Shown here piece after piece: positions 5,348-39,164 of a stretch of 52,165 nt of DNA. A model generated the notes under the pieces. That model saw only the letters and a list, made by a program, of their open reading frames with translations, was not told the origin of the DNA and did not search any database. Source of the stretch: Syncephalis plumigaleata (Eukaryota; Zoopagomycota; Zoopagomycetes; Zoopagales; Piptocephalidaceae); assembly GCA_025201365.1 (NCBI GenBank), contig JAIXMF010000057.1:1-52165 (forward strand), written 5' to 3'. Position numbers and translations under genes: made by a program. The stretch's first letter is position 1, and each line of letters opens with the position of its first letter.

Positions 5348-6070
5348 ATGTACGCACGCTATGTTCTTTTGCTTACCATTGTGGCTGCAGTAGGATGTTC
5401 AGCGCAAACAAACGAACCACTACCAAAGGAACTTTTGAATCCAAATGCGATAGACTTGTCGTCCAGACAACAAGCACCAAGTCGTAGCGAGATAGAGAAA
5501 GCGATATCAGCTCTAAACACAGCGAAAGCAGATCAATCATCTTCATCACCAAGCCCAAGTCCAAGCCCAAGCCCAAGTCCATCTCCAGGTCCAGCTCCTA
5601 GTCCAAATGTCAACCCATCTCCATCTCCAAGTCCATCGCCATCCCCTAGTCCTTCTCCAAGGCCATCTCCTAGTCCTAGTCCTTCTCCTTCTCCTTCACC
5701 TTCTCCTTCACCTAGCCCATCTCCATCTCCATCGCCTTCACCTTCTCCAAGTCCCAGTCCATCTCCGTCTCCATCACCGTCTCCAAGTCCATCACCGTCT
5801 CCATCACCATCTCCTAGTCCTTCGCCTTCTCCATCTCCAGATCCTTCTCCAGATCCTTCGCCTTCGCCTTCTCCAGGTCCCAGCCCATCAAACAGCACGG
5901 TGGTTACAGTTGTTCAGCCTCCCTCCAATTCCAATGGTACACGACGACCAACAGACTCGGCCGGCTACTCCACTGTTCAAAATATTCCATATTGTATAAA
6001 TTTTGTGTCCAGTGCTATTACAAGCATTTTGGTTATGATCTTCTTCCAGGCCACAGTTGGTATTTACTAG
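5348..6070 (+). CDS. Secreted Ser-Pro repeat cell-wall protein
   Basis: A 240-aa intronless protein. It starts with a signal peptide ([20 protein letters not shown]). Then comes a short polar region (roughly residues 20-65) and an almost pure Ser-Pro dipeptide array to about residue 175, broken only by a few Gly, Ala, Asp, Asn or Arg. A polar stretch with [17 protein letters not shown] follows, and a hydrophobic tail ([20 protein letters not shown]) that could be a GPI-attachment signal or a membrane anchor. Ser-Pro arrays are typical of O-mannosylated, rod-like wall proteins; enzymatic activity is not expected. The synonymous codons vary within the array, so this is an old repeat rather than a fresh expansion. 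The start is set by the TATA box at 5286 and the signal peptide. First of seven surface-protein genes in a row. Confidence 0.85.
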
Positions 6071-21881: not shown

Positions 21882-24800
21882 ATGGAATTATCTGTTGATA
21901 ACAATAATAACAATAGCCAGTCTATAGTCAATGCTACAGCATCCATATCATCAAATTCCCCTGGTATTTCTATCATCATCATCATCATCGATACTAGTCA
22001 ACATGCTAATCGTAATACTACTATCTAATGGTCTTTCTAATGACAATCAATAGATGGTAAGTCTATATCGTATGACATTGATTGCGATGCTGATGATGAT
22101 GCCACATATGATGCTGTCAATCATAGCTGGTGAGTTAAACAACGAGTGATCATGACATCTATCGTGTTGACTAAAATGTACATCAAAATCATATGTTACT
22201 ATTATAGAAGCAGACGTAAGTTGATATTCTGTCTAAATAAACATACAACGTACTAATTGCAATACTCGTATGATAGGAGGTGAGTTGTGAATCACGATGA
22301 TACTATGCCATACGCTCATTGAAATGTGGCAATTGATTTCCGTATGATTATCATGCATAGGAACACGTAAGCTACTAGTATCATTGCAATGAACCATTTG
22401 ATTCACGTATAATTGCATGTATTAGTGGGTAAGCAAGCACTCGTTGGAATGTGGCATTCGATTCACCGATGATGACACGTAATAGATTGTAAGTGGGCGG
22501 TATTCTGATTGCAGTATATGTCATACTAATTGCAATGGCACAATTGCTTCATTTGTCATTCCACACACACACACATGACAGCATGTAGGTGATCATTTCG
22601 ATCATAGTCTATGATGTGCTCATTACAAGTTGACATGTCATGATACGTGTACGATGACCTGTAACAGGATGTAAGTTGCTAGTCTAGCATTACCGTATAA
22701 TGTACTAATAACAACAACAATCATCATTCTCTTTGCATATGATTGCACTAGTATGTAAGTGGACATTTCCATACTAGTGCATGACGTGTTAATAGCAATG
22801 CATCACACACACACACATATACATACATAATAGATTGTAAGAAGTTGGCATTCCAGTCTTACTAGTCGATGTACTCATTACCCTATGGCATACAATTCAC
22901 ATATGATTACGAGTAATAGTATGTAAGTGATGATCAGTGCAATGTGCGATCGATTAATTACAAATTGATTGACGATTCACGTATGCTTCCATGTAACAGA
23001 GGGTAACTAGACATTCCTATCGTGATATGTGTGATGTGTTAATCGAAATGATGAACATGGTTCATGATGGATGATTACACGGCATAGATTGTAGGTTGGC
23101 ATTCTAGTGTTAGTATACGGCATACTAATCATAGTATTTATTTATTATTACGAATAATAGGAGGCAAGTCATTGTGATGACTATAGCATACAATATACTA
23201 ATTGTAGCATGATACATGATTGACTTGTAACAACACCTGCAGAAGCCAGTAAGCTAGCGTTCCAATAATCACAATAATCATAATGGATGACATGCTAAGT
23301 GAAATGCAAATACAATTCATATACGTGTGTGTGTATGTATGATAATCACACGACATAGAGTGTAAGTTAACACGTGGACTACAATTCCAAAATGTAGCTC
23401 ACCTATAACTATGCAATACAATAGGCCGTAAGTTATTATTTCGATTGAAGCATACGAGACATTAATTGGAGTGTGGGATGCAATACACATACTATCACGT
23501 ACAACAGATAGTAAGCTAGCATTATAATTGCCGTATAATGTACTAATAGGAGTGTGAAATGTGATCTGCATATGAATACGTACAGCGAAGAGTAAGCTAG
23601 CATTATGATGACAATGGGTGAAGTATTAATCGTGATGTGGCGTATAATCCATATGCATTATGAATGGCAGTTGGTAAGTATGCAAAATGGCAACAGCATT
23701 CGATGGGCTGATCATAATACGCCATACAATTCTCGTATAATTACACGTCACAGGAAGTAAGTTAATAAATCGATTGCAGCATACGATAGTTCAATTGTAA
23801 TCAACGTATGGCCCACTAATGATTACGCATGGTAGGAGGTAATCTAGTACATCGATTATGACGTGTAATGAACTAATAGTATGGATAGACGGTAAGTTAA
23901 TATACCGATTGAAGCATACAATGAACTAATATGAGACTTGATACATGCATGATCATTCATGATAGCCGGTAAGTTATTAGATTGATTGTAGTATACGACG
24001 AGCTAATGATGAGATGGCATCTAATTTCTTTATTATTATGCATGGTAGTATGTAAGTTAGCAAATAAGTTATACCATACAATGAACTAATTGTAAATTAA
24101 AATGCGATTTCTGCATGATTATGAATGACAGGGAGTAAGTGGGCATAATGCTTACAGCATACAAAGGGCTGATCATAATGGACCATACAATTCTCGTATA
24201 ATTACTCACTACAGACAGTAAGTTGGTACACTGATTTCACCATGCAATGCTCTAATTGTAAATTGGGGTATGACTCGCCTGTGATTATACATGACAGACT
24301 GTAAGTAAGCATAATGATTACAGCATGCAACCAGCTAATAATAAAATGGTATGCAATTCATCTATGATCATGAATGTTAGGAGGCAAGTTGATATATGGA
24401 TTACATCCTACAATGAATTAATTACGATGCGACATACAATTCGCATATGATCATGAATGGTAGTGGGTGAGTACGCATAATGACAACAGCATACGATGAG
24501 CTCATTACAATTTTTGTATAATTATACGTTACAGGAAGTAAGTAAGCATACTGATTACAGGGTACAATGAGCTTACTGTAAATTGACATATAATTCACGT
24601 ATCATTATGCGTGGTAGTCGGTAAGTTAGCATACTGATTAGAGCATACGATGAGCTTACTGTAATTGGCATATAATTCCCGCATGTTTCTGCATGGTAGT
24701 GGGTACGTTGAATGGCGGTTACATAATACAACGTGCTGATATGATTCGTGATACACGTATATTTATACCTGACAGCAAGTAAGTTAACATGCCGATTACA

Positions 24801-27800
24801 GCATACGATAGTTCAATTGTAATTAACATATGTTTGCTTATACTTACGCATGATAGGGGGTAAGCTTATAGATTGATTGTGGCATGCAATGAACTAATCC
24901 TGTTGTAACACTCGATTTCTATACAATTATGTGTGATAGGAAGTAAGTCAACCTACAGATTGCAGCATATGTCGAACTAATAATAATATGTCATAAATCC
25001 GCGTATGATTATGCATGGCAGGATGTAAGTGGTCATTATTGATTTCTGCATGCAATAGTCCAATTGTGATTTACATATGACTGCTTATGATTACACTTGA
25101 TAGATTGTAAGCTAGCATATCGATTACGACATATAATGTACTAATCGTATTGCGACCTTAATTTTCATACGATTGTATGGGACAGCGAGTAAGTCAACGT
25201 ACGATTGCAGCATACGATGTACTAATATGATTATGTATGGCAGTTTGTAAGTCAAGATAATGATTACAGAATACAATGAATTAACATACAGAATACGCGT
25301 ATAATTATACCTGACAGCGAGTAAGTCAGCATGCCCATTGTAGCATACAATAGTCAAATTGTAATTAACATATGGCTTGTTTATAATTATGCATGATAGA
25401 AGGCAAGCTTACATATTGATCATGGATTTAATAAACTGATCGTACGATGATCCACGATTCTATACGATTGTGTGGGACAGGGAGTAAGTTAACATGCCGT
25501 TTGAAGCATACAGTGAATTAATAGAAGATTCGATACATGCATGATTATACCTGACAGCGAGTAAGTTGGCATGCATATTACAGTATACGATAATCTGATT
25601 GTAACTATCGCGTGACCTCTTTATGATTAGCAAGTACGAACGGTAAGCTAGCACATCAATTATGACGTGTAATGAACTAATAGTATGGATAGACGGTAAG
25701 TTAACATACCAGTTGAAGCATACAATGAGTTAATATGATTTGTAATGTATGTATGATCATTCATGGTAGCCGGTAAGTTACTAGATTGATTGCAGCATAC
25801 AGTAAGATGATTAATTGTAATGGATGTGATCCATATGTGATTACAAATGATAGATAGTAAGTTATTATTCGATGCCAATGCTGAATGAACTAATTGCAAG
25901 ATGCCTTATAATTTACGTATGATTACATGTAATAGGAGGTAAGCTGACATGTTGATTACAAGATGTGATACGCTAATGATAACACCATTGAATGATTCAC
26001 ATAAACCTACAAATGTCAGAGAGTAAGTTAGTATTCCAGCTAATATACATAGCGTACTAATTGTACTGTGGTATACTATTGACTGTCGATTGTGTATAAA
26101 AGAGAGTAAGTCATCACTCTGATTACAGTCTACGGTATGCTAATCGGAATGCGATATGTGCTTGTCGTATCATTATTATTATAGGGAGTAAGTTGATATC
26201 CGAATGATAATGCATCATGCACTCATTACAACGGGATGTACAACTCACGTAGAATCCTGCACAGAAAGACGTAAGTTTTATCGTTTGATGTGGTCAGGCA
26301 TCGTGTGGCGCTAATTCACTATTGTATGGCCTAGTTCTGGGCTGAGTATTACCGTGTAAGTTGATATCTCGATTACAATCTACGCTATATTGATTGCAAT
26401 GGGATATGTGCTTGTATTATTGTTATTATAGCTAGTAAGCTGATATCCAAATGATCATGCATCACGCACTCATTACAATGGGACATACAATCCACGTATA
26501 ATCATGTATAGGAAGCAGTAAGTTTATCGTTTGATGTGGTCAAGCATCTTATGAAGCTAATCCACTGTTGTGTGGCCCAGTTGGAGAAGGCGAATCAACA
26601 TGTAGGTTGATGCCACGATTACAATCTATGGTATACTAATGGGAATATAACAAATGCTTGACGTATGGCTGCATGATAGCTTGTAAGCTGAAAGTGTCAG
26701 CTAGTAGACATGAAGCATTAATCATAATGTGACATACAACTCCCGTATGATCATGAATACTAGGATGTAAGCTAGCATTTTTAGCATTGATACGTCGATC
26801 TAATTGCAATGTGGTATACAACTCGCGTGTGATTACATATAACAGCTTGTAAGTGGGCATTGTAATCACGGCATGCGGTGCACTGATTGCATTATGGCAC
26901 ATGATTCATGTATGGTTGTATGTGGTAGTTTGTAAGTTTATTATTCTTGTTACTCCATACGAGGCATTAATTGGAATGGGACATACAATCCATGTATGAT
27001 TATGCGCATCAGGGAGTAAGTCAGCATTCATGTTGTAATACGCTATTGATAGCTGATAGTAATTGGGCATACCATTCATATGTGTGCATGTATGTGTGGA
27101 TAATAGACCGTAAGCTAGCATTCTAATGGCAATTTGACGATGTACTAATAATCGTAATGACGTGGTGTACACCCACAAATGATCATGGATGATAGATGGT
27201 AAGAAAGTCAACCTATTTATTGGAATAGTCTAGTCGCTAACTGCAGTATTGTATCTCATTCGTATATGCTTACGTGTCATAGGCAGTAAGTGGACATTCG
27301 AATGCTATCGTATGGTAGATTGATGGCAGTATAATGGTATACGTTTCATGTATGGCCACATTCTATAGTTTGTAAGTGGGCATTTTGATTGTAATGTGAC
27401 ATACAACTCACCTATGATTATGCGTGATAGGAGGTAAGCAGGCATTCTTGTCCCCATATACGACATGCTAATGACAATGTATGGCATACGATCCATGCAT
27501 GATCATGTATGATAGAAGAAGGTAGGCTAGTATTCTAGTGGCACGTATTCTCCACTAATTGCAATATGGGATACGATTCATGTCTATGTGATTGCGTATG
27601 ATAGCAAGTAAGTTGACGTATTGTTGCCGTGTATGTCGTGCTAACATCATCATCATCATGCCATATGATTGACGTATAACTATTGAACAGAAGGTAAACT
27701 AGTATTCCGATCAAAATAGACGATGTGCTCATTGCAATGCGAACACGATTCATTTACACTTCCATACGATAGGATGTAAGTCGATAGTACTGTTGCATTC

Positions 27801-29027
27801 TATGGCGCACTAATCACAAGACAACATACAACTCACATTTGATCACGTAGAACAAGGGGTAAGTGGACATTTCAATGGCAATTTGCAATACGCTAATAAC
27901 ATTGCGACATTCAATTCCCATATGATTGTGAATGACAGGAGGCAAGTTGGCATTTCTAATGACAATCTATGGCGTGCTAATTGCAATGTACGCCATATGG
28001 ATCGTGTATACTCACGTATAATAGCATGTAAGTGAGCACTTTTACTTGTAATAGGTGACATGCTAATGACGATATGTGACATACGATTCACGTATTACCG
28101 GATTAACAGAAGGCAAGCCAGTGATCCGATCGTGATATGTCATGTGCTAATGGCAATACGACATGTAATCCATGCATGATCACATACCACAGGAGGCAAG
28201 TCAATGGATTGATGACAAGCTATGCTATGCTAAATGCAATACAAGTTGACTAATATATGATAATGGGCAATAGAAAGTAAGCTATCATATCGACTATCAT
28301 GGATGATTCATTGATTGCAACATGTAACATGGCTCATTCACCATGGCACAACACAGGATGTAAGTCAAAAGAAGGCATAGACATGGTGCATGATGCACGA
28401 CTAATCGATGTGCGATATGCAATCCGGTACAATGATATCGAATAGCAAGTAAGTTGGTATTCTTGATGACAGTGTATGATAACTCACCCATAATGTGCTA
28501 CTCGATCCATGTGGATTGTAAATAATAATAATAATAGGAAGTAAGTGGGCATGCCAATCAATGTATACGCATTACTCATTGTAATGGGGCATGTTCTCCA
28601 CGTATGCTGACATACATCAGATTGTAAGCTATCTTTCCGATTGCCATAGACTATACACTGATTACAATCAATGTAAAATACGATATGTGTACGATTGTAT
28701 GATAGCTTGTAAGTTGATAGTATGACGATAACAAATGCCGCATTAATTGTAATGGTATACACGTTAATTGTTAAGGCATCTTGAAGAATGGTAAGGTAAT
28801 AATCCATCATAATCATACTCATACTAATCCATTATGATCACAGAGCAAGACAAGGACATCATCAAGTAGATATTATAGGTATTCAAGTCAAGAATGTATT
28901 GGTGCAAGACCCTCATTTAGTGTCCATACTATTCAAGTCATTATTCCTTGGCACAACAACAAGTATATCTACAAGATCATTCAATCATTTACTGAATATA
29001 TATGTCAGTCTATATTCATACACATAA
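21882..29027 (+). CDS. Microexon gene A: about 84 internal exons, 72 of them single codons
   Basis: Function unknown; no homologue recognised. Exon 1 (21882-21963, 82 nt) reads MELSVDNNNNNSQSIV then NATASISSNSP and ends in phase 1. About 85 introns averaging 77 nt follow, with GTAAGT-type donors (some GC-AG), CTAAT/CTAAC branch sites and TAG/CAG acceptors. The 8-nt exon at 22208 brings the phase to 0, after which most exons are one codon. They spell EEHWIHDYIYRIEKPSAIRR, then LEETPYGTTEWESWQGED and IRFRKGR; after exon 25631, TPIERRGKD, FWAEYYR, L, EA, LEKANQH, and LDLFGTMAFEKKQKD; then EHKEKDQEILN. The final exon starts at 28844. If exon 27851/27857 is 3n or skipped, the protein ends EQDKDIIK at 28869; another splice path reads to 29027. 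No signal peptide. Total about 140 aa from 7 kb. Exon calls come from splice motifs only. Confidence 0.7.
22054..28790 (+). other. Microexon/intron tandem array of gene A, exon positions
   Basis: Exon starts (3 nt unless a length is given): 22054, 22127, 22208(8), 22277, 22361(6), 22426, 22486, 22582, 22668, 22752, 22834, 22920, 23000, 23088, 23161, 23243(6), 23359, 23425, 23508, 23586(6), 23671, 23754, 23836, 23889, 23966, 24049, 24132, 24215, 24298, 24381, 24464, 24535, 24618, 24700, 24776, 24857, 24940, 25022, 25104, 25186, 25244, 25318, 25400, 25481, 25558, 25631(12?), 25693, 25770, 25854, 25936, 26020, 26103, 26185, 26265(6), 26335(21), 26432, 26512(6), 26581(21), 26680, 26764, 26846, 26929, 27013, 27107, 27196, 27283, 27369, 27431, 27516(6), 27605, 27691, 27773, 27857(2, or 27851, 8), 27939, 28025, 28110, 28193, 28274, 28357, 28446, 28538, 28621, 28706, 28787(4). 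Each is preceded by AG and followed by GT or GC. Exon 23243 could also start at 23246. Confidence 0.7.
28844..29027 (+). repeat. Last-exon sequence of gene A, near-identical to that of gene B
   Basis: Matches 33411-33570 with few substitutions over about 150 nt, while the introns upstream are far more diverged. The two length differences are multiples of 3 (an extra CAT near 28917, and a block near 28955). That favours the long frame that contains QVKNVLVQDP and SILFKSLFLG as coding. Confidence 0.8.
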
Positions 29028-29090
29028 TGCTCAATACAATTATTTCAATAGAATATAACAAGACATGATGATTGTAACAGGTGTACGTGA

Positions 29091-29177
29091 CATTATTGAT
29101 GGAGTATTCTGAAATGATGATGATGTGTAGATTTAGACAATTGATAGATCATGCGGTTACACGACATGACAGACATT
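29091..29177 (+). repeat. Upstream block shared by microexon genes A and B (copy B)
   Basis: Copy of 21313-21400; see that entry. Confidence 0.75.
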
Positions 29178-29494
29178 CACCATTACATCTCATTAATACT
29201 TGCTTACTCAATGTACTACCCACAAGCAGCGGATTGACAATGCAGCCATACCAATATCCACTCCTAATTGGCACGATGCTGTTGGAACAGTCTTGCCCTA
29301 TCATTCAGATAGCAAATCTACTGGTCAATATCCACATGGATGGCATGGTAAACGTGCAGCCCGATGGATGTTCCATCATTCCGAGTACAATCCATGTACA
29401 GAGGCGAGTATCGTATGGAGATAGTCTGACTGTGACCTATGTCCATCGTATTATGCTCATTAGGAATATCCGCCATCATCACTATCATCTCGGC

Positions 29495-29502
29495 TATAAA
29501 TC
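29495..29502 (+). promoter_or_regulatory. TATA box of microexon gene B
   Basis: TATAAATC about 200 nt before the ATG at 29698, at the place equivalent to the TATA box of gene A. Confidence 0.55.
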
Positions 29503-29697
29503 AAGCACTTTTTAACACACTCGACTTGCCATCTTCATACTCGCTCTTCTACTCTACTCTACCCTAGCTACTATTTACTACTATCACTACTCGTATATAT
29601 CACTGCCTTATATTCTCGTTCTATTCTACTCCCACTACTTTCTACTCTCGTTCTAGTCAACTTATCTGTCTATCCATTCCACTAGGCCAACATCAAC

Positions 29698-32600
29698 ATG
29701 AAGTTCTCTGCCGTTATCGCTATTGCCGTCGCCGTTGTCGCTGTCGCCAGTCTGGTTGCCGTCGAAGCCAAGCCCACTAGGATGCGTCGTCGTGGTATGT
29801 CACAGGAACAATAAGAACAATAATGATAATAATGGACACTAGCTGACTCATTAATGATTGCTCGATAGCTGGCAAGTCTACCATTTGACCACAATGTCCC
29901 GTGTATTAACCATGCTGTATCACTATTTGTACATTTATTCCGTGAATAGTTGGTATGTTGTCAATGTAATAATGATCCCATTCAATGTGCTAACCGTAAT
30001 ATAATCATGCTCAATCCTCATGTGTGTGCGTGTGTGTCTATTCCGATAGTCGAACGTAGGTTTGCCGATAAATAAATAAACCACCTGACATGCTACTAAT
30101 CATATTGCCATATCGACATGGTACATGGATCAATAGGCCGTAAGTAGTAGTCATGCATGCTGACCATACCATTCAATGAGCTAACCATCCATATGGAATT
30201 ATTCCACAAATAGGTGGTACGTATGACTACTATGGCCATGTCGATTGATGTACTAATCGTAGCCTATTGTTTCATTGTCCACCGATGATTACCGATAGCT
30301 AGTAAGTTCATGTGTATTAAATTGTTGTTTTGACATGCTAATCACATCATAATGTTTGTTCAACGTATCAATATGTTAGCGCAAGGTGGTAAGCTAGTTT
30401 ATTATTTGTATCAAGTGCTATGCTAATAGTAATATAAATCAAAATCATATGTGGCTACCGTTTCAAGGTTTGGTAAGTTAACATTGTTATTGTCATTATG
30501 GTATACTAATTACGATGTGGCACTTAATCCACGTATGCACCTGTATGATAGGACGTAAGTTATCATTCTGACTATAATGAATGAGATACTAATTATACTA
30601 TGGCGTATGATCCACACCTGTTCTTGTACGATAGGACGTAAGTCACCATTCTGACTGTAATAACTGTGATACTAACTACGATACGGCACACGATCCCCGC
30701 ATACGCTTATGTATGATAGCTCGTAAGTCATCATTCTGATTGTCATTAATGATGTACTAATTATAACATGACGTATGATCCACGTGTGGTTATGCTTAAC
30801 AGCTCGTAAGTTACCATTCTAAGTATGACGTGCACTATACTAATTACAATATAATCTACGACTAATTTGTGATTAAAAGGATGTAAGTCAGCATTCTAAT
30901 CGTAACATTTAACATGCTAAAGCCAACCTGGTACACGATTTGTCCATGGCTATACGCAATAGGGGGTAAGAAGTCAACACTCTAGCCACAACAGATAATG
31001 CGCTAACGATGATGTGTGCCACACGATTTACACGTGATTACTTGTAATAGGTTGTAAGTTAGCACGCTGTTCACAATACACATAATACGCTAACGGTGAT
31101 GTTATACACAATCCACGTATGTTCACATACAATAGGCTGTAAGTTAGCATCATTATTGCGAGATGTAGTACGCTAATGACAAATGGCACTCGATCCACGC
31201 ATGACTATGCATAACAGCTGGTAAGTTGACATCAGCCTACAAGGAATAATTTACTAACTACCTTGTGGTACACGACATGCGTATGATTATGTGTAACAGG
31301 CTGTAAGTTACCATTTTGCTTGTAATATATGCTTGTTCTAATCACGCTATGGCGTATGATCCACCTATGTTCCTATATGATAGGGCGTAAGTCATCATTC
31401 TGGCTGTAATGAATGAGGTACTAATCACGCTATGGCGTATGATCCACGTATGTTGTTGTATGATAGGACGTAAGTAAGCATTCTGACTGCGATGAATGAG
31501 GTATTAACTATGATATGGCTCACGATCCACGTATGTTGTTGTATGATAGGAAGTAAGTTACCATTCTAGCTGTAATGAGCGTGGTACTAATTATGATATG
31601 CATGTGATCCTCGTATATTTGTATATAACAGTTTGTAAGCCATCAATATAATTGTAAGGAATGAGTACTAATACCAATGTGGCACATGATCCTCGTATGT
31701 TTGTATATGATAGATCGTAAGTAATCATTCTGACTGCAATGAATGAGTGTACTAATTGTAGCGTGGCACATGATTCCGTGTATGATAGAAAGTAAGTTAT
31801 CATTTTAGTTGTAGCCTATGGGGTACTAATTATAGCGTGTTACACGATTTTCTTATGTTTTTGTATAACAGTTTGTAAGTGATCATTCTGACCGTAATGA
31901 ATGAGATACTAATCATCCTATGGCACACGATCCACGTATGTCTGTGTATGCTAGTGGGCAAGTTAGCATTTCGATTATAATCTATGGTATATTAATCTTA
32001 GTATGACATACGATCTACCTCTGTTCCTGTACGATAGGCTGTAAGTAATCATTCTGGCTGTAATGAGCGTGATACTAATTACAATATGACAAATGGTTCG
32101 CCTATATTCTTGTATGATAGGCCGTAAGTTACCATTCTAACTACAATGTATTGATGTACTGACTACAGTATGGCACATGATCCACGTATGTTCTCGTGTT
32201 GTAGAGCGTAAGTAATCATTCTGACCGTAATGAATGGCGTACTGACTACAGTATGGCACATGATCCATCTATGTTTCTGTATGATAGGTCGTAAGTTAAC
32301 ATTCTGATTGTAATGAATGAATGATACTAACTACGATATGACACACGATCCCTACATGTTTCTGTACATCAGCCTGTAAGTTAATGTTTTTGATCGTAAT
32401 GTATTAATGTACTAATCACAGCATGGCATACGATTCACGTATGTTCTTGTGTTATAGAGCGTAAGTTGGTGTTCTGACCGTAATACACGATGTACTAACA
32501 ATGAAACGACATACAATTAACATATGTTTCTGTATGATAGAATGTAAGTTAACATTACTATTGTAATGCATGCATGGGCTAATTATAATATATATCTTCG

Positions 32601-33570
32601 TGTACAATAGGCCGTAAGTTATTGTTCTGATCGTAATGAATGGGTGTACTAATTACACTATGGCACACGATTAACATACGTTCTCGTATGATAGCTTGTA
32701 AGTTATCACTCTAGTTGTAACCTATGTCATACTAATCCCACTATGGTACATAATTCATATATTTTTGCATACGATAGGCCGTAAGTAATCATTCCAATGG
32801 TAATGCGTGGATGTACTAATCACAATACGGCATGCAATCCATGTCTGCTTGTCTATAACAGCTTGTAAGTGACCATTTTGGCCGTAGTGAATGAAGTACT
32901 AATTATACTATGGCGTATGATCCACATTTGTTCTCGTATGATAGGTTGTAAGTTATCACTCTAGTCGTAACCTATGTGGTACTAATTGTAATATGGCTCA
33001 CGGTCCACATATGTTCTCGTATTATAGAGCGTAAGCTACCATTCCGCTTGTAACCTATGGCATACTAATCCCACTATGGTACATAATTCATATATTTTTG
33101 CATACGATAGCACGTAAGTCATCATTCCAATGATAATGCGTGGATGTACTAATTACAATACGGCATATGGTCGACATATGTTTCTGTATGATAGAAAGTA
33201 AGTAATCATTCTGACCGTAATGAATGATGCGCTAACGACTATATGCCACATTATTCCCGTATTCTCTTGTATGATAGCCCGTAAGTCATTACTCCAATCG
33301 TCATCTACGATATGCTAATTACACTACAGTCCAGTTTAATGGAATGATAGGATTAAGCAGTAAGTAATACTTCAAATGATCATACTCATACTAATTCATT
33401 ATGACTACAGAACAAGACAAGGACATCATCAAGTAGATATTATAGGTAATCAAGTCAAGAATGTATTGGTGCAAGACCCTTTAGTGTCCATACTATTCAA
33501 GTCATTATTCCTTGGACCAAGAAATATATCTACAAGATCATTCAATCATATATTGAATAAATATGTGTGA
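29698..33570 (+). CDS. Microexon gene B: secreted protein with 43 internal exons, 40 of them single codons
   Basis: Function unknown. Exon 1 (29698-29794, 97 nt) encodes a clear signal peptide, MKFSAVIAIAVAVVAVASLV then AVEAKPTRMRRR, and ends in phase 1. Microexons continue AVVERRASGL; the 5-nt exon at 30468 sets phase 0. The next 34 exons are one codon each and spell DDLLDGVALAGDEFIKFW, then AASVPSNALALVSHKP. A 2-nt exon (33358-33359) and the last exon (33411-33570) give QTRQGHHQVDIIG, NQVKNVLVQDP, LVSILFKSLFLG and STRSFNHILNKYV before the stop, about 129 aa from 3.9 kb. The basic stretches (RMRRR, ERR) could be Kex2-type sites. Introns (44, about 79 nt) have GTAAGT donors, TACTAAY branch sites and GATAG/ACAG acceptors. 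Aligns with gene A in promoter, exon 1 phase, phase-reset exon and last exon. Ends 26 nt from the convergent FES1 stop codon. Confidence 0.75.
29869..33359 (+). other. Microexon/intron tandem array of gene B, exon positions
   Basis: Exon starts (3 nt unless a length is given): 29869, 29950, 30050(6), 30137, 30214, 30299, 30386, 30468(5), 30552, 30635, 30720, 30803, 30880, 30963, 31051, 31136, 31218, 31300, 31384, 31467, 31550, 31632, 31714, 31789, 31872, 31955, 32038, 32121, 32205, 32288, 32373, 32458, 32541, 32611, 32695, 32778, 32862, 32945, 33028, 33111, 33195, 33278, 33358(2). Spacing is 70-112 nt. Many introns share the same inner text (ATGGCACACGATCCACGTAT-like) before the acceptor, so units arose by tandem duplication. 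Exon 30386 has a CAAG acceptor with an alternative TTAG 9 nt earlier. Confidence 0.78.
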
Positions 33571-35524: not shown

Positions 35525-36517
35525 TTATTCAGCTGACGCAAAGTGTACTGGACTTAAATCTAACACTTTTTCTGTAACATTACTTCTTAATAAACGCTGG
35601 CGTCTGTAATGTTTTTCGAATGTGCGTGCATCTGCCCAATTGCCTAGTGTAATGATGTCATCGTGTGGTACACCTCTTTCAAGTGCTAAATCTGAAGCGA
35701 TTGATCTGACACGAGGAGTTGGGCGAATGTCTGTTGAGAGCGCTGTCAACTTTGACAACCAAGAAGCAATGGTGTTATCGGCGACTTTATTGTGAGGCTT
35801 GCCTAACTTAGTGAATAGGTAGTTGTTTCTGACGATATATTGTGGGTGTTGTAATAGTGTTTCGTATGCTTGTACGGGGCATAGCTGTGGGATGTTGCTG
35901 TTAGGTGGAATAATGATTGGTTTAGTAATCGACTCCTTCTTTCGCTTTTCTTTCGGATTAATGATGTATAGCTGTAGGCCTTCGTCAGTTGTTTTTGATT
36001 GTGATCTGCAAATTCTATTGATATCAGAGGGTCTCAATAGTGCTGACATTGCCAGTAAGTAAGCCGTTTTTCGTCGTAGTTGATCAAAATCAGCTGCTGG
36101 TGACGTCGGTATGGCGTATAAGTGACGTAATGTGGGCGTAATATCAACTTTTGATTTATTCAGTGGACGTGGGATGTATTTGAAGTTCCTTATCAGTGCT
36201 TGTATGTCAGGATTGGTTTTGATTGATTCAGGGCGTGTGTGTAGCTTGACAATTGCTGCTCTATAAGTTTGTAGAGTTGCTTTGCTGTAGCCTGCTTCAT
36301 GTGCATCTGCTATGAAATTAACCAAATCTGCTGATGTAAATTTGCTGATATTGATATCCCTTTGGATTGCCCATGAAATGAATAATTGTTGACCTCTGAT
36401 GTACGTTTTGTGCTTTACTTCTGCTAGAACTTTCACTGCCTTGTCCGAATATCCTGGCTCCTCATATTTTCGCTTGAGACACTCCACACGGATATTCTCC
36501 ACTTGTGATTTGTCCAT
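35525..36517 (-). CDS. DIRS tyrosine recombinase
   Basis: Site-specific recombinase that inserts the circular cDNA, replacing a DDE integrase. From the Met at 36517 (MDKSQVENIRVECLKRKYEE) it is 330 aa. It has a SAM-like core-binding domain (TLQTYRAAIVKLHTRPE), then the catalytic domain with LRRKTAYLLAMSALLRPSDI (first Arg), a Lys in the beta-turn region, RVRSIASDLALERGV (second Arg) and GNWADARTFEKHYRR (Trp and Tyr of the active site). It overlaps the end of the RT frame by 85 nt in another frame. The frame stays open far upstream (to 38641) across the RT gene, so the Met used is my choice from the domain start. Confidence 0.88.
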   Translation of the reverse strand: MDKSQVENIRVECLKRKYEEPGYSDKAVKVLAEVKHKTYIRGQQLFISWAIQRDINISKFTSADLVNFIADAHEAGYSKATLQTYRAAIVKLHTRPESIKTNPDIQALIRNFKYIPRPLNKSKVDITPTLRHLYAIPTSPAADFDQLRRKTAYLLAMSALLRPSDINRICRSQSKTTDEGLQLYIINPKEKRKKESITKPIIIPPNSNIPQLCPVQAYETLLQHPQYIVRNNYLFTKLGKPHNKVADNTIASWLSKLTALSTDIRPTPRVRSIASDLALERGVPHDDIITLGNWADARTFEKHYRRQRLLRSNVTEKVLDLSPVHFASAE

Positions 36518-38469
36518 GGCCAACTGGCGGAAGGGGAGGTAGTTTGCGCGTGGTGTTGTGGGTCGAGTATTATTGGGGGAGCTGTGGCTAAGTTGCTCAG
36601 TATGGGGAACCACATTGCTGACGGCCAGAATGGCGTCACTATCGTTGCTTGTGCTATCTTCTCCTGTTGTATCTTGTTCACACATTTGGATATCAAGTTC
36701 CACGGCGGATTCAGGTAAGGATGGCTGAATTGTCTCCAGCTGATTGATAGTGCATCTGTGGCTATCGCGTGAGGGTCTGGCTTCCACGCTACATACGTTG
36801 GTAGTAGATGAGACGTTCGATCGGCGAATAGATCTACGTCGTGTTGACCGTACCTGCGTTGTATCTGTGCAAATGTGCGTGGATGTATTTGCCATAAGTT
36901 CTTGAGGTAGAACTTGCGCGATGCGTAGTCTGCTTCGGTATTCTGAGAGCCTGGAATGTGTTTGGCTCGAATCTGAATGTTCCTCTTGAGACACATCTCC
37001 CATATCTGCGTTGCTAGTGAGCTGAGTTGACGAGATCTCGTTCCTCCCTGCTTGTTGATGTATGACTTCGCCGTCGTGTTGTCTGTGCGTATCAGAATCG
37101 TCGTATTCGATAGTTGCGGTAATGATTTGATCATCAATTCGATTGCTTTCAGCTCTCTCCAATTGATTGATTGCTTCGCTTCTTCGTGTGACCATAGACC
37201 TTGTATCATGTTGTTCTTGTAAACTCCACCCCATCCCTTGTCGCTGGCATCCACATAGATTGATGATGTTGGTGGACGTGTTATTAGTGATCTGCCGTTC
37301 CACTTGGATAGGTTGGTGGACCACCATCTCAGTTCTCGCTTGCAATCTGCTGGTAGCGTCTGTTTGCTGTCCCAGTTCTTGTTGTTCTTCACATGGGAAT
37401 TCTTGAAGAACATCAATGCTTGGGTGTACAAGTTCACAGGAAATATTGCGATCGTCGCTGCCTTGATTCTCATTGTGAGACTGTGGATCATTCGAGGTGT
37501 TGTCGTATTGCTGTTGAGCACTGCTTTGATCGATTTGCGTATGTCGCGGATCTTCTTGGTGGGAAGCTTGATGGTCATCGTCTTCGTTTCTATCTTGAAG
37601 CCTAGGTGAACTAGAGACTGCGTTGGAGTGAGCTGTGACTTCTTGGGATTCCACAGCCAACCTAGTTCTGCTAGTTTGGCCATTATTGTGTTTGTGTGAC
37701 ATTTCGATTCCTGCTTTGAGCTGGCGATGATGATCCAATCGTCTAGGTATGCTGAAATTCGAATGCCTATTGACCTTGCCCATGCTAATACGGGCTTTGT
37801 TAAACGTGTAAAAACCCACGGGACTACTGACAGGCCGAAGGGTGTGGTGCGAAATTGGAATGTTTCTCCTTCCCAATTGAAACGGAGGTACTTTCTTGAG
37901 CTGCGATGTACCAAAATGTGTAGGAAGGCGTCGGTAATGTCTATGGACGTGAGGTAGTCGTTTTTCCTTACTAGCTGGGTGACCTGTTGGATTGTCTCCA
38001 TCTTGAAGTGAGGGGATATAACGTGCTGATTCAGTGCCTTCAGATTGAACACTGGTCGATAGCCTCCGTTCCACTTCGGGATGACAAACATGGGACTCAT
38101 GTAACCTGGCGTATTCGTGGCAGGCTCTATTGCTCGTTTGGCCAATAGACTGTTGATCTCTTGCCTCAGTAATACGCGCTGTTCCTGGTTGAGCGGGATC
38201 GTCGGTCGCACTTTGTTTGAGATTGGTGGCCACTTGCTGAAATGTATCCGGAAACCTTCTTTGACGACGGCATGTACCCACTTGCTGTCTGTCAATCGAG
38301 CCCAGGCTAGATGGAAGCGCTGGAATCTGCCTCCTACTGTTGGTTGTTGTTGTTGTTGTTGTTGTGGTGGTGGTTGCCTCTGTTGAATTGGGGCTTGACT
38401 CTGCCTCCTCTTCTGTTGTTGTTGGCTTGGTTGAATGGGCGCTTCTGGTAAGAGTTCCTGTTGTGCCAA
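36433..38469 (-). CDS. DIRS reverse transcriptase-RNase H polyprotein
   Basis: A 678-aa protein that copies the element RNA. A Gln/Pro-rich leader is followed by the RT domain: IPKWNGGYRPVFNLKALNQH, YLTSIDITDAFLHILVH, FGLSVVPWVFTRL and the catalytic box YLDDWIIIAS. RNase H follows with IYVDASDKGWGG, NWRELKAIELMI and ILIRTDNTTAKSYINKQGG. The C-terminal part (DVDLFADRTSHLLPTYVAW, ALSISWRQFSHPYLNPPWN) matches the methyltransferase-like domain seen in DIRS elements. The frame is uninterrupted. Overlaps GAG at its 5' end and the recombinase at its 3' end, typical DIRS packing. Confidence 0.9.
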   Translation of the reverse strand: MAQQELLPEAPIQPSQQQQKRRQSQAPIQQRQPPPQQQQQQQPTVGGRFQRFHLAWARLTDSKWVHAVVKEGFRIHFSKWPPISNKVRPTIPLNQEQRVLLRQEINSLLAKRAIEPATNTPGYMSPMFVIPKWNGGYRPVFNLKALNQHVISPHFKMETIQQVTQLVRKNDYLTSIDITDAFLHILVHRSSRKYLRFNWEGETFQFRTTPFGLSVVPWVFTRLTKPVLAWARSIGIRISAYLDDWIIIASSKQESKCHTNTIMAKLAELGWLWNPKKSQLTPTQSLVHLGFKIETKTMTIKLPTKKIRDIRKSIKAVLNSNTTTPRMIHSLTMRIKAATIAIFPVNLYTQALMFFKNSHVKNNKNWDSKQTLPADCKRELRWWSTNLSKWNGRSLITRPPTSSIYVDASDKGWGGVYKNNMIQGLWSHEEAKQSINWRELKAIELMIKSLPQLSNTTILIRTDNTTAKSYINKQGGTRSRQLSSLATQIWEMCLKRNIQIRAKHIPGSQNTEADYASRKFYLKNLWQIHPRTFAQIQRRYGQHDVDLFADRTSHLLPTYVAWKPDPHAIATDALSISWRQFSHPYLNPPWNLISKCVNKIQQEKIAQATIVTPFWPSAMWFPILSNLATAPPIILDPQHHAQTTSPSASWPWTNHKWRISVWSVSSENMRSQDIRTRQ

Positions 38470-39164
38470 TTGGATTGATCCTGCCCGCCAGCGTTTCGTG
38501 GCGGGTCCGCTCGAAAAAACTGCTGGGCTTTTTTGTGTTCCAGTATGGCCTTCTTTTGGTTGCTTTGCTCAATGAAAGCTTGTTGGATAATTGCAAGGTC
38601 TTCCTTTGGTTGCTCTTCTTTCTGAATGAGTGTGAAGTCACTGTCCATTGACTTGAGGACCATATCCATTCTAAACGATTTCACAGTGTGAATCGTGTTT
38701 AACAGCAACGATCTAATATCGTCTAGAGCTACTACAAACTGGCGATCAGCTTCCTGGTCTGCTTGTAGGATTGCTTGTTGTAGGATAACATCTAGCGGGC
38801 GTACAACGCCTGTTAATAAATATGCTATTTGCTTGAATCGGCTGTCGTATGCCTTCTGATACTTGTTAAGTTTTGAGCTCGATTCATAGCTACTGACTGG
38901 CGTATAGTCAATACCTTCTATTGGAGCGTAGGCATCGACTATTGCCTTCTTGTCTTTCTCAGATAAGCTAAAGTTATCCAGCCTTGCTGACCATGAACTG
39001 ACGTGGTTAACAAAGTTTTCGTCCGGAATCCAGGTGTCCTTCTGCCTGGTCGGGAGTTGAACCTGCAGAGTTTCTTGCATCTGTTTGAACTGCTGCATAG
39101 CTTCTTGCATTTGCTGCCACATCGCCATCATCTCCTGTGGGTTGAAACCTTGATTTTGTTCCAT
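38334..39164 (-). CDS. DIRS GAG-like protein
   Basis: A 276-aa first ORF with a Met/Gln-rich predicted coiled coil (MMAMWQQMQEAMQQFKQMQE). A central helical region follows (SRFKQIAYLLTGVVRPLDV, ADRQFVVALDDIRSLLLNT), then a basic C-terminus (NNNRRGGRVKPQFNRGN) ending in His, Asn and Gln runs that probably binds RNA. Named by position and composition; GAG proteins of this class share little sequence. Overlaps the RT frame by 136 nt. Confidence 0.75.
   Translation of the reverse strand: MEQNQGFNPQEMMAMWQQMQEAMQQFKQMQETLQVQLPTRQKDTWIPDENFVNHVSSWSARLDNFSLSEKDKKAIVDAYAPIEGIDYTPVSSYESSSKLNKYQKAYDSRFKQIAYLLTGVVRPLDVILQQAILQADQEADRQFVVALDDIRSLLLNTIHTVKSFRMDMVLKSMDSDFTLIQKEEQPKEDLAIIQQAFIEQSNQKKAILEHKKAQQFFRADPPRNAGGQDQSNWHNRNSYQKRPFNQANNNRRGGRVKPQFNRGNHHHNNNNNNNQQ

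Follow-up and report, generated by a model that had tools for sequence, protein, structure and literature searches.

Can the coding region of a gene be divided almost entirely into exons of a single codon? This question is raised by a contig of the fungus Syncephalis plumigaleata, a member of the Zoopagales in the Zoopagomycota (JAIXMF010000057.1, assembly GCA_025201365.1), from which a stretch of 52,165 nucleotides, hereafter the window, was analyzed. A first-pass annotation had proposed that positions 21882–33570 of the window contain two genes, with approximately 112 exons of 3 nt among 127 internal exons.

RESULTS AND DISCUSSION

Spacing of Splice Sites in the Window

Within 21882–33570, the motif YAG-N3-GTAAG(T/C) was found 87 times on the plus strand and 0 times on the minus strand. 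For the remaining spacings of 0 to 30 between YAG and GTAAG(T/C), only 0–5 occurrences each were counted in this region, and the motif occurs once elsewhere on the plus strand of the window. In recursive splicing, the next donor follows the acceptor with almost no separation, and zero bases are left per step. The corresponding zero-length arrangement, YAG-GTAAG(T/C), was found 0 times in 21882–33570, and each step in the Syncephalis arrays would leave three bases rather than none.

The exons were delimited with a Viterbi parser that used a flat exon-length prior, was trained on the splice sites of 21882–33570, and required an AG acceptor. The free parse of gene 1 gave a score of 1,457 and 84 internal exons, 73 of which were 3 nt. 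Ten dinucleotide shuffles of gene 1 were determined to have scores of 6–46 with 0–2 exons of 3 nt, its reverse complement had a score of 62 with zero 3-nt exons, and four other stretches of the window scored below 8. In the final models of both genes, 111 of the 127 internal exons are 3 nt, within one of the initial count, and the outer exons begin at 21882, 28844, 29698, and 33411, exactly as first proposed. Their description as single-codon exons holds for the 94 of these 111 that are whole codons in phase 0; it does not hold for the 7 in phase 1 and the 10 in phase 2.

Elsewhere in the window, the protein encoded by an ORF at 5348–6070 begins with a leader-like stretch and has an extended Ser-Pro repeat, and retrotransposon-like ORFs occupy 35525–39164 on the minus strand. 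The ORF at 36433–38469 (minus strand) matches reverse transcriptase, with weaker matches to RNase H and Dam. A long ORF of the window aligns with a deposited S. plumigaleata protein at 98% identity over 57%.

Models of the Two Genes

The features of gene 1, a member of subfamily B, are as follows.

21882–28869, plus strand: gene 1; 86 exons and 85 introns; homologous to the intron-free paralog L081
21882–21963, plus strand: exon 1; 82 nt, ending in phase 1 (later parses chose 34 nt)
22214–22215, plus strand: 2-nt exon AC, at which the phase changes from 1 to 0
26335–26355, plus strand: 21-nt exon in the final model
26581–26601, plus strand: 21-nt exon encoding LEKANQH, which aligns with the contiguous LQAANQH of L081
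27857–27858, plus strand: 2-nt exon GG, at which the phase changes from 0 to 2; picked to fit L081
28776–28790, plus strand: penultimate exon; 15 nt (4 nt in the free parse)
28844–28869, plus strand: last exon; the family-wide 3' end

The 84 internal exons of gene 1 (72 of 3 nt) encode approximately 107 amino acids, mostly in phase 0, and the 85 introns are 50–110 nt in length (median, 79). The predicted protein contains 135 amino acids, with no signal peptide evident by eye, and its TGA stop codon is split by the last junction (28789–28790 and 28844). The exon at 22214–22215 may alternatively be read as 8 nt from 22208, and the frame is kept in both the 8- and the 2-nt readings. The reading of the free parse was broken by stops. 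Six borders were set by hand, mostly to fit paralogs: the end of exon 1 (82 rather than 34 nt) and the borders of five internal exons (8 to 2, 1 to 6, 8 to 2, 4 to 15, and 3 to 6 nt). Every acceptor is AG, and no base was changed. Gene 1 resembles L064 on contig C351; this contig and that of the window (C337) may represent haplotypes or a segmental duplication.

The features of gene 2, a member of subfamily A, are as follows.

29006–29697, plus strand: 5' region common to other family members; 78–91% identical by blastn to loci on contig C1
29698–33436, plus strand: gene 2; 45 exons and 44 introns; predicted protein of 79 amino acids
29698–29794, plus strand: exon 1; signal-peptide-like MKFSAVIAIAVAVVAVASLVAVEA followed by basic RRR, ending in phase 1 (by eye)
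30468–30472, plus strand: 5-nt exon, of a kind frequent among family members, that takes the reading from phase 1 into phase 0
30552–33280, plus strand: run of 34 consecutive 3-nt exons with their introns, in phase 0
32646–33277, plus strand: 333-bp (four-unit) tandem duplication with 79% matches
33351–33359, plus strand: penultimate exon, holding the stop codon TAA (33354–33356)
33411–33436, plus strand: last exon; 3' untranslated region in gene 2

Of the 43 internal exons of gene 2, 39 are 3 nt; the 44 introns are 51–97 nt in length (median, 80), and the product is probably secreted. The 5' region was compared by blastn using 28771–29300 and 29401–29800 as queries. All four codons differ between the two copies of the duplication at 32646–33277 (CTT GCC CTT GTT versus AGC CAC AAA CCC). 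Gene 2 has an open exon 1, and there are 0 premature stops in the final models of both genes.

Intron-Free Paralogs and Deposited Proteins

The decisive evidence comes from five intron-free paralogs, L078–L082, which have the junctions that the splice model predicts. In L078, L079, and L080, exon 1 is followed by a continuous body and by the tail of the penultimate exon, fused to the last exon without interruption; by eye, L079 and L080 also have the long family 5' region. L081 and L082 are the subfamily-B equivalents, with an ORF of 131 amino acids. The spliced product of gene 1 (134 amino acids in this alignment, and 135 after one further border move) is identical to L081 at 59 of 136 positions in an alignment that begins close to the start and extends to the stop, with a two-sequence E value of 1e-26, and the TGA stop spans the same junction in both. 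The end-to-end frame of gene 1 is not fully independent of this comparison because its borders were set with L081 in view. Spliced L033, in which no border was moved by hand, matches L081 at 84.6% over 130 nt. A genome search with the joined bodies of array genes gave two matches, both to subfamily-B intron-free copies, and no intron-free counterpart of the gene 2 body was found in it. The models and the joins of the intron-free paralogs agree with the original proposal of two genes built of nearly all 3-nt exons.

The paralogs bear directly on whether each array might be one giant intron that is removed by recursive splicing or skipping, with the 3-nt steps acting as ratchet points and the mRNA consisting of approximately exon 1 and the last exon. 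The acceptor-N3-donor arrangement does resemble recursive splice sites, skipping of a 3-nt exon leaves the frame unaffected, and the lack of stop triplets described below could reflect avoidance of decoy sites. However, the intron-free paralogs hold the body as well, beyond exon 1 and the last exon, and we regard this reading as very unlikely.

A profile of seven spliced subfamily-A proteins identified 18 proteins: 15 named S. plumigaleata, 1 other NCBI entry, and 2 from JGI. The family may have relatives outside of the S. plumigaleata genome. The gene for P0004 is intron-free, and a pattern for the end of this protein had no match in the genome for that reason. P0016 contains GDDQPAFIMSQPDDEQAQFFMAMQQQ, a string that by eye nearly reproduces the one-codon exons of L047 and keeps their order, and the P0016 annotation differs from the L047 model at several exons that are missing or extended. 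The searched parts of P0012 and P0014 had no contiguous match in their own genome, and their contig has two places with Trp-Lys one-codon exons, each downstream of a family exon 1. P0021, a JGI record of 70 amino acids from another source, has a related leader and the sequence RRAVVQRRAP, where gene 2 has RRAVVERRA.

A Family of Array Genes

The layout donor-intron-acceptor-NNN-donor was found at 2,776 places genome-wide, compared with 245 in the reversed control. The same layout with four bases was found at 68 places (373 in the reversed control) and with six bases at 220 (293 in the reversed control). Three successive donors at the array spacing occur 2,036 times genome-wide and 2 times in the reversed control, and the last exon of the family, with no more than 3 mismatches, occurs at 175 places (0 in the reversed control). 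A subfamily-A protein gave 144 matches to the genome, mostly to exon 1, some of which lie in intron-free or broken copies. Matches of equal score are found on separate contigs (for example, C46, C178, and C281), and the assembly therefore probably holds near-duplicate or allelic contigs that inflate the gene counts. Within the limits of this redundant assembly, the family to which the two genes belong is large.

Forty of the 42 genes or pieces fetched were parsed, leaving out L039 and L060. These 40 models contain 1,269 internal exons, 1,071 of which are 3 nt and 1,218 of which are multiples of 3, together with 1,309 introns having 1,257 GT and 52 GC donors and a commonest length of 80 nt. Five further loci brought the totals to 45 models and 1,163 exons of 3 nt. 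Outside of these counts are L039 (unparsed, with no exon-1 or last-exon match), L060 and L073 (no units), and L074, whose last exon was missed by the script and which was parsed separately. L060 is a solitary, truncated 3' end of the family, and in L073 the family last exon is next to a retrotransposon-like ORF (by eye). The GT or GC donors, branch motif, and AG acceptors are those of U2-type introns. The branch motif named in the first-pass annotation is present as CTAAY in 1,028 of the 1,438 introns of 45 genes, and the strict form is missing from 410.

Subfamily-A members start with a signal-like exon that usually ends in RR, and in most of them a 5- or 2-nt exon shifts the reading from phase 1 to phase 0. 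Read exon by exon in phase 0, 34 of the 45 models stop in the penultimate exon (one exon earlier in L072). In 7 of these 34 (L032, L036, L040, L044p, L062p, L065p, and L072), one exon is not a multiple of 3 in this reading; it is the switch exon itself in L044p and probably in L032. The remaining 11 models are nine subfamily-B loci, where the phase changes again, and the poorly parsed L059 and L068. A constant phase-1 reading with the end QDKDIIK was abandoned because the 5- or 2-nt exon moves subfamily A to phase 0, with its stop in the penultimate exon, and gene 1 ends in phase 2.

Two further arrays frequently use an exon of 6 nt: L071 (G000:C223:612000-615200), where 18 of the 35 internal exons have this two-codon length, and G000:C58:10438-12755, with at least 16 such places on C58. 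None of five family proteins scored above the Pfam cut-offs, and a PDB search with family proteins gave no significant match.

Five of 27 subfamily-A loci (L032, L035, L051, L053, and L075) have an exon 1 that is either not open or in a phase other than 1, and these may be either decayed copies or assembly errors. It is thus conceivable, but improbable, that the family is functional while many arrays, possibly including both genes of the window, are decaying. The five disrupted exons, the solitary 3' end, the copy beside the retrotransposon-like ORF, and the fact that gene 1 is open throughout only with hand-set borders all point in this direction. Against it, exon 1 of gene 2 is open, neither final model has a premature stop, and the splice sites are still constrained between paralogs.

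Stop Triplets and Decoy Splice Sites

None of the 1,163 exons of 3 nt in the 45 models is TAA, TAG, or TGA; for the first 1,071, the base composition predicts 28 stops. When the triplets are joined and read in the two other frames, 25 and 117 stops are found among 1,031. Genome-wide, TAA or TGA occurs as an exon at 11 places, compared with 27 in the reversed control. Other triplets are rare as exons: CAG (0 found, 17.8 expected), TAC (0 found, 11.3 expected), and GTA (1 found, 22.8 expected), and in our reading these would make decoy splice sites. Since TAG is an acceptor, and TAA and TGA create GTAAGT and GTGAGT across the acceptor G, decoy avoidance could also remove stop triplets and explain their absence in part. 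Many of the exons are, in addition, related copies, and the missing stops alone are therefore not proof of translation.

Divergence of Exons, Introns, and Splice Sites

Pairs of units were compared when they had at least 25 common nine-letter words and at least 95 aligned sites; the pairs overlap and are not independent. For between-gene pairs with introns less than 5% diverged (n = 371), the divergence was determined to be 6.3% at exon sites and 3.5% in introns, and for those with introns 5–10% diverged (n = 687), 13.8 and 7.4%, respectively. In these two closest bins, exon sites are approximately 1.8 times as diverged as introns, third positions are the lowest, and the ratios of synonymous to nonsynonymous changes are 2:52 and 10:171 (12:223 in total). 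Within genes, the unit pairs (15 and 45) gave a ratio of 0:34. Donors and acceptors are less diverged than introns in 13 of 13 gene pairs, and exon triplets are clearly above introns in 11 of these and approximately equal to them in L064p/L067p and L052p/L067p; the synonymous to nonsynonymous changes of the 13 pairs sum to 6:164. Homogenization of introns could inflate the contrast between exons and introns.

The codons are thus fast-evolving, and donors and acceptors are conserved between paralogs, in keeping with the earlier remark that exon content varies from unit to unit while the splice signals stay intact. The selection for splicing suggested in the first-pass annotation is supported by this constraint, by the absence of stop triplets, and by the predicted joins of the paralogs.

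The same evidence was weighed against a satellite-like tandem repeat of 83 bp in which the splice-like motifs are incidental and neither splicing nor translation occurs. The units are indeed in tandem, of approximately 83 bp, and have a common full-length consensus. However, the 3-nt spacing is constant although adjacent units range in length from 58 to 94, the donors and acceptors show far stronger conservation than other parts of the unit, stop triplets are lacking, and the spliced products are homologous to intron-free ORFs. The satellite reading was rejected on the splice constraint and the homology of the spliced products, and its probability is negligible.

Origin of the Units

The best-matching intron was found 1–4 units away for 455 of 1,250 introns, compared with an expected 296. 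Gapped identities of random intron pairs (0.71–0.72) equal those of shuffled sequences and are uninformative; similarity was instead evaluated from a consensus built without gaps from 94 introns that are 80 nt long. The 80-nt introns of subfamily A have a common full-length consensus. In a weak tree, where one of the three intron-free subfamily-A genes sits on a long branch, these genes are found at two positions among the array genes and require two changes.

These results also address whether the intron-free genes are ancestral, the arrays having arisen from introner-like insertions between codons. Introner-like elements are known in fungi from the published descriptions consulted (PMC4457414, PMC9860276), and the single consensus of the subfamily-A introns would suit such an origin. 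A fixed 3-nt spacing would not be expected from insertion, however, adjacent units are the most alike, and the intron-free genes occupy two places in the tree. We consider an insertional origin unlikely.

Proposed Structure and Splicing of the Genes

The explanation that we favor, with considerable confidence, is that the two genes are spliced members of a one-codon-exon family that have grown by unit duplication and encode small, fast-evolving proteins. In this explanation, homologous U2-type introns of approximately 80 nt divide the coding body into exons that are mostly one codon long, and the body would have grown by tandem duplication of a unit of one intron and one codon. An exon of 3 nt has no room for both of its splice sites to be bound at once, and therefore stepwise removal, with three bases left per step, is the likeliest course. 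If the genes are expressed, every intron would be removed from the pre-mRNA, probably successively from the 5' side, and each step would leave three bases abutting the next strong donor. Skipping of any 3-nt exon would keep the frame and may add protein variants.

The product of subfamily A (gene 2) would be small, probably secreted, and cleaved at its basic site; that of subfamily B (gene 1) would be small, charged, and leader-less. Recombination with full-length cDNA is the probable source of the occasional intron-free copies. Rapidly changing codons with retained splice signals would be expected for proteins at a parasite-host interface. Syncephalis is described as mycoparasitic in the source consulted (PMC10386755), and from the signal-like exon 1, this lifestyle, and the fast evolution, a function at the host interface seems the likeliest.

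Comparison with Known Systems

In the portions of the literature cited here, the coding region of the schistosome micro-exon genes (MEGs) consists mostly of very small symmetrical exons, the products are found in parasite secretions, alternative splicing is proposed to vary the protein, and dN/dS exceeds 1 for the mature portion in three families (PMC4350168). The Syncephalis arrays, which were likened to MEGs by gene structure, also consist mostly of tiny symmetrical exons, as the proportion of multiples of 3 indicates (1,218 of 1,269). As regards secretion, exon 1 looks signal-peptide-like by eye in gene 2 and in subfamily A, and no such leader is evident in gene 1. The Syncephalis genes differ from MEGs in that the exon is typically exactly 3 nt, the introns are homologous tandem copies, and the organism is a fungus.

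The aphid bicycle genes, as summarized in PMC9168663, likewise form a large, fast-evolving family of putative effectors with many micro-exons, about 17 exons on average, and nearly every internal exon in phase 2; the megacycle gene contains more than 100 microexons for approximately 2,000 amino acids. In contrast, the 84 internal exons of gene 1 encode approximately 107 amino acids, and phase 0 predominates in genes 1 and 2 (94 of 111 exons of 3 nt). Isolated ultra-small exons include a 1-nt exon in Fusarium CYP621A (PMC12940212), a 3-bp exon in Drosophila homothorax (PMC7392893), and plant microexons of 15 nt or less (PMC8831610). As presented in these sources, such exons show that the spliceosome can include exons of a few bases, but they sit in otherwise ordinary genes, whereas Syncephalis has dozens in a row. 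In the accounts of introners and of intron gain by tandem duplication consulted (PMC9860276, PMC4457414, PMC4974935), homologous introns likewise multiply and duplication can create introns; multiplication in Syncephalis is local, with approximately one intron per codon. Among the literature matches listed, including the papers on Syncephalis, the titles and abstract openings, mostly of non-subscription sources, describe neither arrays of one-codon exons nor this family.

Implications

It is plausible, though we advance it tentatively, that a parasite has built a gene family of perhaps more than 100 members from single-codon cassettes and generates diversity codon by codon through stepwise splicing. 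If so, each amino acid would have its own exon, which could be singly duplicated, lost, replaced, or skipped without a frame shift, and there would be up to approximately 2,700 such exons in the 33-Mb assembly, or fewer if near-duplicate contigs are discounted. The disagreement between the deposited P0016 and the array structure suggests that gene finders may overlook or distort such genes, and others may be hidden. Dozens of consecutive exons near the practical minimum length would allow direct tests of splicing fidelity, of the sequence in which introns are removed, and of how far exon definition can go, and the family would constitute an extreme fungal parallel to the schistosome MEGs and the aphid bicycle genes.
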